Below are positions 23,974-30,392 of a stretch of DNA of 39,449 bases, in pieces. Under the pieces are notes generated by a model, which worked only from the letters and a program-made list of their open reading frames with translations, did not search any database and was not told the origin of the DNA. The stretch's first letter is position 1, and each line of letters starts with the position of its first letter. The translations under genes were made by a program, and so were the position numbers. Origin of the DNA: Rhodospirillaceae bacterium (GTDB lineage: Bacteria; Pseudomonadota; Alphaproteobacteria; SMXQ01); NCBI GenBank assembly GCA_947474495.1, contig CANJIM010000027.1:1-39449 (forward strand). The letters are read 5' to 3'.

Positions 23974-25037
23974 TGACAACCCCCTTGCCCGATCGCATCA
24001 CCATCCGCCGGCCCGACGACTGGCATTTGCATCTGCGCGACGGCGCCATGCTGGCGAGCGTGTTGCCGCATAGCGCCAAGCAATTCGCACGCGCCATCGT
24101 CATGCCCAATCTGGTGCCGCCGGTGACGACGCCGGAGATGGCCGTCGCCTATCGCGATCGCATCAAGGCATTGCTTGGCGGCCCCTCTGCAGGGAATACG
24201 GACTTCACGCCGTTGATGACCTGCTATCTGACCGACGGCACCGATCCGGCGTTGTTGGCGCAGGGCCACAAGGACGGCATCTTCACTGCCGCCAAGCTTT
24301 ATCCCGCGCATGCCACGACCAACTCGGCCCACGGTGTCAGCGACATCACGAAGATCGATGCAGTGTTGGACAAGATGGCCGAAATCGGCATGCCGCTCTT
24401 GGTGCATGGCGAGGTCACCGATCCGGCCGTCGACATCTTCGATCGCGAGGCGGTCTTCATCGAGCGCGTGCTGATCTCGACGTTGAAGCGCCATCCGAAC
24501 CTGAAGGTAGTGATGGAGCACATCACCACGGAGGAGGCGGCAAGCTTCGTGCTCGGCGGCGGCGCGAATATCGCGGCGACGGTGACGCCGCATCATCTCG
24601 TCATCAACCGCAACTCGCTGTTCGCCGGCGGGCTGCGCCCGCATGCCTATTGCCTGCCGGTCGCCAAGCGCGAGAAGCACCGCTTGGCTTTGCGCAAGGC
24701 GGTGGCGTCGGGCAGCGCCAAACTGTTCATCGGCACCGACTCGGCGCCGCACGCGCGCGAGGCCAAGGAAAGCGGCTGCGGCTGCGCCGGTATTTTCTGC
24801 GCGCCAACGGCGCTGGAGGTTTACGCCACCGTGTTCGCCGAAGAGGGCGCGCTCGAGCATTTCGAAGCCTTCGCCTCGCTCAATGGCGCGGCCTTCTACG
24901 GCCTGCCGCCCAACACGGGCACGGTGACGCTGCTGCGCGAGCGCTGGCTGGTGCCGGAAAGTCTGCCGGCGGCGGACACGACGGTGGTGCCCTTCATGGC
25001 CGGGCAGACCTTGAGCTGGAAGCTTAACGGCTTTTAA
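23973..25037 (+). CDS. pyrC: Dihydroorotase (type II)
   Basis: A 354-residue cytoplasmic zinc enzyme of pyrimidine synthesis that interconverts carbamoyl-aspartate and dihydroorotate. All metal-site residues are seen: H18 and H20 in [10 protein letters not shown], the carbamylated lysine K107 in [11 protein letters not shown]144 in LLVHGEV, H182 in MEHITT and D255 in GTDSAPH. The ATG at 23973 shares a base with the asnB stop; the longer upstream frame is a shadow. It is the last large gene of the operon, with no evident separate promoter. Confidence 0.97.
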
Positions 25038-25116
25038 CCATAACGCCCGCTGGCGCGGCGTGCGGCGCTTCGTTAGGCTTGACCGGTCGCGAACAGGCAA
25101 GCCAGGGAGGCACGCC

Positions 25117-25341
25117 ATGCATCGGATCCATTTCAGCGTCACGCGTTCCATGATCGTCGCAGGCTGTGCGCTTTTGCTCGCCGCTTGCGCCGACGCGCCG
25201 CGCACCTGGCCCGGCGGGCCGGCGTTCCAGCCCGAGATCGCTTATTGCTACGTGACCTTGGCCAACGTCGATTGCTACGCCAATCCGCAAGTCGCCCAGG
25301 AATACCGCCAAGTGACGCGGGCGCTCAGCGCCCCGCATTGA
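25117..25341 (+). CDS. Very small putative lipoprotein
   Basis: A 74-residue protein starting at an ATG with a strong GGGAGG site six bases upstream. It has a hydrophobic segment and the lipobox LAAC with C24. The mature part is about 50 residues with two cysteines (in YCYVTLANVDCYANPQ) that could form a disulfide. No family is recognised. It follows pyrC by 79 bases and converges with a minus-strand membrane protein gene twelve bases further on. Confidence 0.7.
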   Translation: MHRIHFSVTRSMIVAGCALLLAACADAPRTWPGGPAFQPEIAYCYVTLANVDCYANPQVAQEYRQVTRALSAPH

Positions 25342-25353
25342 GATGCGGCATTG

Positions 25354-25620
25354 TCACATTCTTGGTTCGATGTAGTTCTTTGTAGGAACTGCGCCGGTTC
25401 GACGTGTTTCATTGAGCAATTCTCGCAATGTGTCGCGGATGTCTACTAAAAGCGCGAAGTAGCCGCATACGAGTACGGCTGCGAGAAAACCAAGCCCTAG
25501 GCCGATGAGCGTTTTATCTGGGCCGCCAAATATTTGAGCGAAGTAGCCGCCGGCGGCGATAAGCGCCAATGCATAAAGCATATTCAGAAAGCCAAATGCG
25601 CTCGCTAATAGCCTATTCAT
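25354..25620 (-). CDS. Small two-pass membrane protein
   Basis: An 88-residue protein with two hydrophobic segments (about 7-28 and 38-60), a small glycine-rich turn between them, and a charged tail. I recognise no family. Its ATG is preceded by one A and then twelve Gs, so the homopolymer occupies the ribosome-binding position. It is 22 bases downstream of the zinc-ribbon gene on the same strand and probably cotranscribed. Codon use (ATA, CTA and TTA are present) is more AT-rich than its neighbours, a possible sign of recent acquisition. Confidence 0.6.
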   Translation of the reverse strand: MNRLLASAFGFLNMLYALALIAAGGYFAQIFGGPDKTLIGLGLGFLAAVLVCGYFALLVDIRDTLRELLNETRRTGAVPTKNYIEPRM

Positions 25621-25621
25621 T

Positions 25622-25633
25622 CCCCCCCCCCCC
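25622..25633 (-). repeat. Homopolymeric G12 tract at the ribosome-binding site of the small membrane protein
   Basis: Twelve consecutive Cs on the plus strand give G12 on the minus strand, ending one base before the ATG at 25620. Tracts of this length slip easily during replication. In this position slippage would change ribosome-binding strength or spacing rather than the reading frame. The exact length may also be a sequencing uncertainty. Confidence 0.8.
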
Positions 25634-25642
25634 GTTAGGTTG

Positions 25643-25834
25643 CTAATCTTCTGGCGCGAGATCGCAGTCGGCGCCCTGGCAGCAATCCAGAATATTGGAG
25701 CCGCAGGCGCTGCATTGCGCGTGGCCGTGCACGTAGATCATCGTCGCCGGTTGGCCGCAGCGCGGGCAGCGCCCGGCGTCGGGCGTCGGCGGGGCCAATT
25801 TGGGCCTTATATCGCTCGGTTGATCGCCAGCCAT
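25643..25834 (-). CDS. Small zinc-ribbon protein
   Basis: A 63-residue protein with two CxxC knuckles, C23-x2-C26 and C41-x2-C44, and a CC pair plus a cysteine (51, 52, 58) near the acidic C-terminus. This looks like a structural zinc ribbon of the kind widespread in alphaproteobacteria, without known function. There is no ribosome-binding site, and a TATAGT box ends seven bases before the ATG, so a leaderless message is likely. It is divergent from the HExxH gene across only 21 bases. Confidence 0.7.
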   Translation of the reverse strand: MAGDQPSDIRPKLAPPTPDAGRCPRCGQPATMIYVHGHAQCSACGSNILDCCQGADCDLAPED

Positions 25835-25871
25835 GCCGGGGACTATAACGCCCGCATGATTTTGACTCCAA
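25820..25871. promoter_or_regulatory. Overlapping divergent promoters sharing one symmetric -10 element
   Basis: ACTATAAC at 25842-25849 reads TATAAC on the plus strand and TATAGT on the minus strand. On the plus strand TTGATC (25820-25825) lies 18 bases upstream. On the minus strand TTGGAG (25871-25866) lies 18 bases upstream. The -10 boxes end six and seven bases before the ATGs at 25856 and 25834, so both messages would be leaderless. Confidence 0.5.
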
Positions 25872-26491
25872 TAGCGCCCGAAGACCTGCCGCGCCTGCTG
25901 GCCGACTTTGGCGGCGGCCTGCCGGTGGGCGACGCCGTGGCGCGAGCGGCCTTCATGCGCATCGCCGGCGGGCCGTCAGCCTTCGCGGATCAGGCGGCGG
26001 AAGAGGCGGCCCGGCGGCAGGCGGTCGACCTGGCCGCGCGATTCGGCATTCCGACGCTGGAAGAAGAGCCTGCCCGCGCCTTCAGCTGGGACGGCAGGGG
26101 GATCCGCGCCCTGAGCGAGCCCTGCGTGCTGCTGCATGAGATCGCCCATTGGCAGATCTGTCCGATGGCGCGGCGCGGGCTCTATGATTTCGGCCTAGGC
26201 GCCGGGCCGGAGACCGGCCGGCGCGACGAGGCCGAAGCAGCGCGCCAAGCCGACTTCGCCACCCAAGAGCGCGAGGAGGCCATGGCCTCCTTGCTCGGCA
26301 TTCTGTGGGAAACCGAATTGGGCCAACCGGCGGTGTTGGCCTTCGCCGAGCAGAACTGGCTGGAGCGGGCGGATCATCCCGGCACGCCAGGCTATTTCGC
26401 CACCGTCATCGGCTGGCTCCATGCCGCCGGCTTGATCGATGACCAGGCGCGGCCGCGCATGACGGCCATCGCAGACAACGCCGCCGCCTAA
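25856..26491 (+). CDS. HExxH-containing protein, EpmC-like
   Basis: A 211-residue soluble protein with HEIAHW at 94-99, which fits an HExxH metal site. The context (LLHEIAHWQ, then ARRGLYDFGLGAGPETGR and a Glu-rich helix) recalls EpmC, the iron enzyme that hydroxylates modified lysine of elongation factor P, but I cannot exclude a small metalloprotease or a protein of unknown function. The reading frame is open upstream to 25640, but that part is the shadow of the zinc-ribbon gene. The ATG at 25856, just after a TATAAC box, is the sensible start. No epmA or epmB gene is in the window. Confidence 0.6.
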   Translation: MILTPIAPEDLPRLLADFGGGLPVGDAVARAAFMRIAGGPSAFADQAAEEAARRQAVDLAARFGIPTLEEEPARAFSWDGRGIRALSEPCVLLHEIAHWQICPMARRGLYDFGLGAGPETGRRDEAEAARQADFATQEREEAMASLLGILWETELGQPAVLAFAEQNWLERADHPGTPGYFATVIGWLHAAGLIDDQARPRMTAIADNAAA

Positions 26492-26594
26492 GCCCCGGTA
26501 CGGCGCTGCTCAGATCGAACAGCGTCTCGTGATTGGGAAATTCTCGCGTGCTTCTGGGCATGGCACGCATTTTGCTGATTGCGGCGAGAGATCG

Positions 26595-26623
26595 GCTTGC
26601 ATCGTTCGCTGCGAACGGCAAGC
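26595..26623. promoter_or_regulatory. Nested inverted repeat upstream of a TctC gene, candidate operator
   Basis: CGTTCGC-T-GCGAACG (26603-26617) is flanked by GCTTGC (26595-26600) and GCAAGC (26618-26623). The half-site ATCGTTCG recurs at 26634-26640, and ATGTG-TG-CACAT lies between. The region is 35-60 bases before the ATG at 26658. The dyads suggest a dimeric regulator; none is identified. Confidence 0.35.
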
Positions 26624-29351: not shown

Positions 29352-30392
29352 ATGAAAAAACTGACCATGACGATGGCGGCGCTTGCCCTTTGCTTGGCGG
29401 CATTCCAAGGCAGCCAGGCCAGCGCGCAGAACGTCGAAGGCGCATTCAAAGGTAAAACCGTCCGAATCCTAATCCCCACCGGGCCGGGCGGCGACCGCGC
29501 GCTTTATACGCTGCCGTTTGCCAGCTATTACGGCCGGCATATTCCGGGCAATCCGACCGTTATCGCGGTGTTCATGCCCGGCGCCGGCGGCTCGCTTGCG
29601 CTCAACAACATCGCCAACGTCGCGGCGCCGGACGGCTTAACGATCACCACACCGCTCGGCTCTGTACTGAATGCGCAGATCATCGGCGATGAGTCGGTGA
29701 AGTACGACGCGCGCAAATTTAAGTGGATCGGCCGCACCGATTCCAGCACACGCGTGCTGACCGTTTCCAAGACGGTGACGGCGCAGACGCTCGATGATTT
29801 GCGCAAAACTGAAATCATCATCGGCGCGGTCGGTCAGGCCTCTGATACGGCGACCAACGCCTATTTCATGAACAAGTTGTTCAACACGAAATTCAAGGTG
29901 ATCGCCGGTTACGGCGCCGCGAACAAGGTGGTGCTGGCGATGCTGTCGGGAGAAACCCAAGGCTCGTTCGGCACCTGGAACAATGTCAGCACCAACCACG
30001 CACAGGCGCTGCGGGATGGCGATATCCGCCCCTTGCTGCAGATCGCCCTCACAGCCGACCCGACGATGCCGAACGTGCCGCTGCTGCTCGATATGGCGGA
30101 AGGCGAAGAGGCCAAGCAGCTGGTGCGCATCATGTCGTCATCGACGCTGATGGGGCAGTCCTTCGCCGGCCCGCCGGCCCTGCCGGAGCCGATCCTGACC
30201 GCGTTGCGCCGCGCGTTCGATGCGACGATGGTCGACAAGGAATTTGTCGAGAAGATGAACAACATCGGCGTCAAATTCACGCCAATGACTGGCGAAGACC
30301 TGACCAAGCAAGTCGACCAGATCATGAACACCTCACCGGAACTGGTCGAACGCTACAAGGCGATCAGTGGCGAAGGCGGGGCTGCGCCTTAA
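29352..30392 (+). CDS. Tripartite tricarboxylate transporter TctC/Bug-family binding protein
   Basis: A 346-residue periplasmic protein with a standard signal peptide (MKKLTM, hydrophobic core, cleavage near ASA|QN at about 25). It shows VRILIPTGPGGDRALY, MPGAGGSLALNNIANVA and a C-terminal LRRAFDATMVDKEFVEKM. Two adjacent ATGs (29349 and 29352) follow GGGAG very closely; I take the second. The leader is about 140 bases long, contains an ACCGCC/GGCGGT hairpin at 29254-29270, and begins at a LysR-type module shared with the monooxygenase promoter, so the gene is probably under the same regulator. The partner permease is not in the window. Confidence 0.92.
   Translation: MKKLTMTMAALALCLAAFQGSQASAQNVEGAFKGKTVRILIPTGPGGDRALYTLPFASYYGRHIPGNPTVIAVFMPGAGGSLALNNIANVAAPDGLTITTPLGSVLNAQIIGDESVKYDARKFKWIGRTDSSTRVLTVSKTVTAQTLDDLRKTEIIIGAVGQASDTATNAYFMNKLFNTKFKVIAGYGAANKVVLAMLSGETQGSFGTWNNVSTNHAQALRDGDIRPLLQIALTADPTMPNVPLLLDMAEGEEAKQLVRIMSSSTLMGQSFAGPPALPEPILTALRRAFDATMVDKEFVEKMNNIGVKFTPMTGEDLTKQVDQIMNTSPELVERYKAISGEGGAAP

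Follow-up and report, generated by a model that had tools for sequence, protein, structure and literature searches.

The 21 bp that separate two divergent genes in a Rhodospirillaceae bacterium probably hold a compact bidirectional promoter of the sigma70 type, in which one symmetric -10 region would serve both strands and both genes would be leaderless, the + direction being much better supported than the - direction. The locus lies in contig CANJIM010000027.1, of which 39,449 nucleotides constitute the window (the whole stretch of DNA that was analysed). A single sister genome, the other genus member in the collection, was compared (G001, with G000 denoting the genome of this locus); loci L002 and L036 share 900 identical bases over the locus and are counted as this one genome, G001. 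The features of the locus are the following:

25643..25834, - strand: the - gene, coding for a 63 aa Cys-rich zinc-ribbon protein (CPRCG...HGHAQCSACG...DCCQG), identified from homologues and the comparison with G001
25820..25825, + strand: candidate -35 element TTGATC, spacer 18, inside the - gene at codons 4-5 (Asp-Gln); sequence and spacer identical in G001
25835..25855, no strand: the 21-bp gap separating both start codons; equal length and 18/21 identical in G001
25842..25849, both strands: shared pseudo-symmetric -10 region ACTATAAC with a TATA core, by direct reading; ATTATAAC in G001
25844..25849, + strand: -10 hexamer TATAAC of the + gene, with the ATG 6 bases on (GCCCGC between)
25847-25842, - strand: -10 hexamer TATAGT of the - gene, with the ATG 7 bases on (CCCCGGC between); TATAAT in G001
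25871-25866, - strand: candidate -35 element TTGGAG, spacer 18, inside the + gene at codons Thr4-Pro5-Ile6; TTGGCG in G001
25856..26491, + strand: the + gene, 211 aa, of an HExxH family beginning MILTP, identified from homologues, with a sub-threshold Pfam match to EpmC (PF04315) around HEIAHWQI

The A's of the two start ATGs (25856 for the + gene, 25834 for the - gene) are 22 bases apart, and TATAAC (+) and TATAGT (-) overlap by 4 bp, an overlap that is retained in G001; the locus thus has the overlapping opposite-strand -10 elements of a bidirectional sigma70 promoter. Direct reading of 25820-25871 revealed no SD-like 4-mer before either ATG, and the base at -1 is C in both genes. A preliminary description of this DNA had proposed a symmetric box giving both hexamers, -10 boxes 6-7 bases ahead of ATGs that lack a ribosome-binding site and start codons 21 bases apart, all of which is borne out (box at 25842-25849; 6 bases for the + gene and 7 for the - gene, no SD-like 4-mer; 21 bases between the two starts). 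Its TTG-containing -35 elements at 18 bases hold in part: TTG and spacer are present on both strands, but the match to TTGACA is poor (4/6 for TTGATC, 3/6 for TTGGAG) and both elements lie inside the opposite coding sequence. The -35 assignments on both strands are weak, candidates only, and the - promoter is weak as well. Support for the proposal of leaderless starts around a shared symmetric -10 box is good in the case of the + gene and moderate in that of the - gene, and from this we infer that the box is used on both strands.

RNA polymerase holoenzyme would bind the one TATA core in either of two mutually exclusive orientations; because the two footprints overlap fully, polymerases could not occupy both orientations at once. 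Initiation is predicted within a base of A25856 (+) and of 25834 (-), the A's of the two ATGs, and both mRNAs would begin with AUG and presumably undergo leaderless translation by 70S ribosomes. That both strands are transcribed, where exactly the +1 positions lie, that 70S ribosomes initiate and that the two orientations compete are predictions, and they build on hexamers, spacings, a missing SD, conserved genes and an arrangement found again in one sister genome, all of which are read directly in the DNA.

The start of the + gene is conserved, as 32/34 homologous loci in the genome collection align from residue 1, with ATG as the start codon in 30 and GTG in 2 (L006 and L016). In a 28-sequence alignment, which omits L006 and L016 (both with GTG starts), L020, L026 and L032 and in which most rows are C-terminally trimmed, residues H94, A97, H98, Q100 and D111 do not vary and E95 and W99 hardly do, forming an HExxHW motif; the invariance of Met1 in this alignment does not extend to the GTG rows because L006 and L016 are absent from it. 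No SD-like 4-mer was found 3-13 bases before the start in 36/40 + homologues. Within 60 nt upstream, these 40 starts have TA..AC a total of 15 times, in 11 cases at a distance of 5-10 bases, and a TA-box 4-10 bases before the start is absent from 27/40 with the pattern used here. The 40 homologues comprise 31 of the 34 loci (without L002, of the same genus, and L034 and L035, which are partial) and 9 of 17 further loci (L046-L062), after exclusion of L052, L053, L055, L056, L058, L061 and L062 (other start or partial match) and of L060 (a short contig, yet one that begins ATGATC); some genomes may be counted twice across the two locus sets. The + gene itself has no SD and a conserved start, with its -10 box 6 bases away, within the 6-8 bases expected of a leaderless gene. 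As an observation apart, the box before the + homologue start is TAAGAC in L003, L010, L013, L015, L017, L024, L026 and L029, and several of these loci show CTRGAC further upstream (by eye), possibly a -35/-10 variant of that group.

Regarding the - gene, residues 17-62 of its protein are identical in G000 and G001 with 6 synonymous changes in the DNA, and the variable N-terminal part carries a 15-nt in-frame indel between the two genomes. The protein matches at E 0.001 or better in 9/385 class genomes, including G000 and G001; the other 7 comprise 3 strong matches (E 1.5e-11 to 1.2e-10), 3 weak ones (2e-6 to 1e-4) and L045 (4.5e-4), which looks like a different zinc-ribbon protein. The three strong relatives come from other families and all have the Cys/HGH pattern in common. 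In this genome, the ATG at 25834 is the sole ATG/GTG/TTG of the open frame upstream to and including residue 1, and the same frame in G001 has two ATGs further upstream. The codon score is near zero (0.29). Among the 32 + gene loci, only L002 encodes the - protein (next best E 1.2); in L022, the Cys-rich ORF found upstream of the + homologue does not encode the zinc ribbon. The - gene likewise has no SD and a -10 box within this range, 7 bases before its start, with start conservation taken from two genomes. Both the + and the - ORF look like real genes.

In G001 the locus reads CAT GCCGAGGATTATAACGCCGGC ATG, with gap length and both ATGs kept, TATAAC 6 bases before the + ATG and the consensus TATAAT 7 bases before the - ATG. 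Conservation of the gap was proposed earlier as a check: the 21-bp length, both ATGs and the TATA core are retained, but only two genomes enter the comparison and the 3/21 differences are not significantly fewer than those at 4-fold sites (31/112 in the + gene, 5/28 in the - gene). Since 3/21 against the + gene 4-fold rate gives a P of about 0.13, the gap is not demonstrably slower-evolving, and its conservation was rejected as proof of constraint. A deep comparison of the gap is impossible because the collection contains 2 genomes of the genus and 11 of the order (the same 11 make up the family), of which 2/11 carry the pair while in 9/11 neither protein finds a match at E 0.001. The Pro5 codon of the + gene, which is the source of the TTG in the minus -35 element, is CCA in both genus members and in 1/31 other homologues (L029), while CCA accounts for 4.7% of the Pro codons in the genome sample; this rare codon fits retention of the minus TTG and is suggestive, from a single lineage.

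Leaderless starts appear to be a feature of this genome beyond the locus. In a sample of 1.22 Mb (41%), a simple gene caller yielded 1,073 genes, 900 of them with an ATG and 60 nt upstream, and in these 900 SD-like 4-mers are most frequent 5-10 bases before the ATG. TANNNT at gap 6 precedes 23/900 ATG genes, the top of 50 gaps (mean 6.1 over gaps 10-45); at gap 7, the spacing of the - gene, it precedes 13/900, a count exceeded only at gap 39 (14) when gap 6 is left aside. Both gaps together give 36/900 start ATGs against 37/7,249 internal in-frame ATGs. For the 57 boxes with TA...Y at gap 6 or 7, TTG at spacers 16-18, a range picked after the table was seen, was counted 13 times, compared to 14 times for 202 control boxes elsewhere. 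The excess of TANNNT at gaps 6-7 and the TTG spacing therefore suggest that leaderless sigma70-type promoters form a genuine minority class in this genome, with spacings as at the locus, and the + gene is among the 42 leaderless-like genes of the sample. A C at -1 is no marker of these genes (27/42 against 461/858 other genes). SD-like motifs are found in 9/42 of them against 380/858 others, a depletion that was set aside as evidence because it is partly mechanical, the TA box filling the SD zone; SD-less starts are common here, and a broad SD-like 4-mer is absent before 432/900 ATG genes. The gap-7 count (13) and a start alignment without the GTG rows slightly lower confidence in the bidirectional leaderless reading.

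A centred RNTATANY is present in 2/3,003 CAT-N17..26-ATG arrangements over 1.22 Mb of the genome (any frame, genic or not), this locus being one and L105 the other. The pattern CATN7AYTATARYN6ATG, designed after both sequences were known, has a single occurrence in each of G000 and G001, both at this locus, and its control gave 0 in both genomes. With a looser pattern (TANNNY 6-7 bases before both ATGs, boxes overlapping), the sample contains 13 sites, whereas 20 mononucleotide shuffles average 5.3. The symmetric motif alone is uncommon, not unique, and it is its exact placement between two conserved divergent genes that sets the locus apart. A consensus scan of 25600-26100 returned no promoter-like site (shuffles 0.1); it misses both boxes because its rules need T at the last -10 position and 4/6 per hexamer. 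The promoter/terminator scan gave no terminator site, and no Rfam match reached the gathering score in 25000-26600.

Other readings of the same bases have to be weighed against the bidirectional one. The -10 box could serve the + gene only, with the - box arising from the self-complementarity of TATA; the - gene would then rely on a different promoter, within the antisense strand of the + gene, and on translation without an SD. TATAAC necessarily gives TATAnn in the complementary strand, and the - box may thus be incidental; in addition, the - hexamers are weaker than those of the + gene, + homologues without the - gene also tend to have no SD (some with a TA..AC box near the start) and the - gene adjoins the + gene only in L002 among the 32 homologous loci. 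We nevertheless consider this unlikely, as G001 has TATAAT for the - box, likewise 7 bases from the ATG, the minus TTG at spacer 18 is kept through a rare codon and the - gene has no SD of the kind expected of a leadered message.

That both genes are transcribed from promoters further upstream in each other's coding regions, with short leaders, SD-independent initiation and ACTATAAC incidental, is improbable: the boxes stand at the genome's leaderless spacing on both sides, the arrangement is retained in G001 and the consensus scan of 25600-26100 offers no alternative promoter, against which can be set the 432/900 ATG genes without a broad SD-like 4-mer and the one other place in 1.22 Mb (L105) where a centred RNTATANY lies between CAT and ATG. 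It is very improbable that the - ORF is a chance ORF and the locus a one-directional leaderless promoter; the ORF is short (63 aa), has a low codon score and was missed by the simple gene caller, but its differences over residues 17-62 are synonymous only, its 15-nt indel is in frame and it has homologues in other families.

Bidirectional promoters, leaderless mRNAs and a half-leaderless divergon (csoR-cueA) are already known. Warman, Grainger, Wade and colleagues described bidirectional promoters in which one pseudo-symmetric -10 fires both strands, mostly between divergent genes on the chromosome, and at which opposing polymerases cannot bind together (PMC12825309; PMC10268837, in the accessible portions of both). 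According to the available part of PMC12825309, their common TSS distances are 18, 10 and 23 bp, with small variations possible; the distance predicted here is 22, with a shared TATA core. For the bidirectional promoters of E. coli, the same portion describes little competition while basal activity is low, with competition emerging once one direction becomes strongly active (PMC12825309). The word 'leaderless' is absent from the accessible texts of PMC12825309 and PMC10268837. The csoR-cueA divergon of Bradyrhizobium liaoningense resembles the locus in being divergent with partially overlapping -10 elements, and its csoR mRNA starts from the A of the ATG by 5'-RACE; it differs in that only one side is leaderless, the cueA mRNA having a leader of 42 nt, and its promoters are overlapped by a CsoR box (PMC5057107, accessible sections). 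The lysG-lysE pair of Mycobacterium tuberculosis is likewise divergent with overlapping -10/-35 motifs and has one leaderless lysE promoter, but its intergenic region is 108 bp, the leaderless lysE promoter (P2) does not overlap that of lysG and the system is LysG-regulated (PMC5648196, in the part available). Leaderless mRNAs are frequent in Caulobacter crescentus (375), and 171 are quoted for Sinorhizobium meliloti in the available text of PMC4117421, where the word 'divergent' is absent and shared-box pairs are not discussed under that word. No pair that is leaderless on both sides with a shared -10 was found in the open-access literature examined, and the doubly leaderless 21-bp form is plausible as a new variant of bidirectional promoters.

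Among 130 adjacent divergent called pairs of this genome, 3 have an ATG-ATG gap of 14-24 bp, and one of them also has a shared box:

L119 9691/9711 (G000:C22, about 29691-29711), divergent: mutY/dciA pair, MutY-like (HhH-GPD, NUDIX_4) versus DciA (PF05258)

In its 20-bp gap GGCCAGCTACGATAGCGGAC, TACGAT stands 7 bases ahead of the + ATG and TATCGT 8 bases ahead of the - ATG; the two hexamers share TACGATA in a TANNNTA overlap. Both this pair and the locus are compact with a shared box; mutY/dciA differs by its TANNNTA overlap and by its boxes at 7 and 8, the overlap being that of the 18-bp type of bidirectional promoter by our reading of the -7/-11 pairing in the accessible part of PMC10268837. 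The gap is 20/20 identical in G001, within a 351-bp stretch that is 81% identical; the chance of 0/20 changes is 0.015 at the rate of the 351-bp stretch and 0.0015 at the + gene 4-fold rate, figures uncorrected for a pair that was hand-picked. In the class, the fully symmetric core CTATAG was found in 5/30 loci (in the 166 bp that precede the first aligned residue of mutY; shuffles mean 0.5) and in 0/30 control stretches inside mutY, the loci being the best 30 of 283 genomes with a match, which supports a recurrence of putative symmetric -10 elements upstream of mutY. Paired boxes are not clear by eye in the other two compact pairs (gaps 14 and 24). No paper on mutY together with DciA was found in the open-access literature. 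We put forward tentatively, as a possibility a little short of even, that these bacteria have a minimal 'doubly leaderless' divergon consisting of about 20 bp of shared non-coding DNA with one symmetric -10, in which both mRNAs would start from AUG and each -35 would lie in the first codons of the opposite gene; it would recur in one genome (the locus and mutY/dciA) and subject synonymous codons to selection for the promoter.

Should both starts map to the ATGs, the locus would come close to the limit of compactness for a divergent regulatory unit, with no leaders, promoter elements overprinted on both coding sequences and one polymerase site for two genes. It would then be a clean natural system in which to test the coupling of two genes by a bidirectional promoter, and leaderless annotation together with -10 symmetry could predict such pairs from sequence.

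As for the proteins, neither the + nor the - product reached the Pfam cut-off for any family; NCBIfam has no family for the + protein and gave 7 matches to the - protein, all far under the cut-off. The + protein is probably a metal-binding enzyme. Its family is patchily distributed, with matches at E 0.001 or better in 18/385 class genomes, the weakest of which is doubtful. The nearest relatives of the + gene locus are a MAG of Rhizobium sp. Q54 (88%), followed by numerous Rhodospirillaceae, with some MAGs titled Marinimicrobia. The predicted structure is confident (pLDDT 88.7), and in a PDB fold search 0/23 listed matches were at E 0.001 or better. The best second-look row was ArdC 6sna_A (Z 5.2, rmsd 5.8, 132 aligned), a resemblance of the model that may merely reflect a common arrangement. 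The + family profile matched 3wtr over 28 positions (E 0.001), an entry recorded as an uncharacterized protein which we take to be EpmC; its absence from the fold lists of the + protein is uninformative. The - protein (25643-25834) and L039-L041 form a small zinc-ribbon family with the pattern CPxCG...HGHxQCxxC...CCxG. The G001 sequence differs just downstream of the zinc-ribbon gene. In the same area of the window, a run of 12 C (25622-25633) lies two bases from a minus-strand ATG at 25620, forming a poly-G ahead of an 88-aa ORF and possibly a slippage tract; C/G runs of at least 9 are found at three other places in 1.22 Mb.
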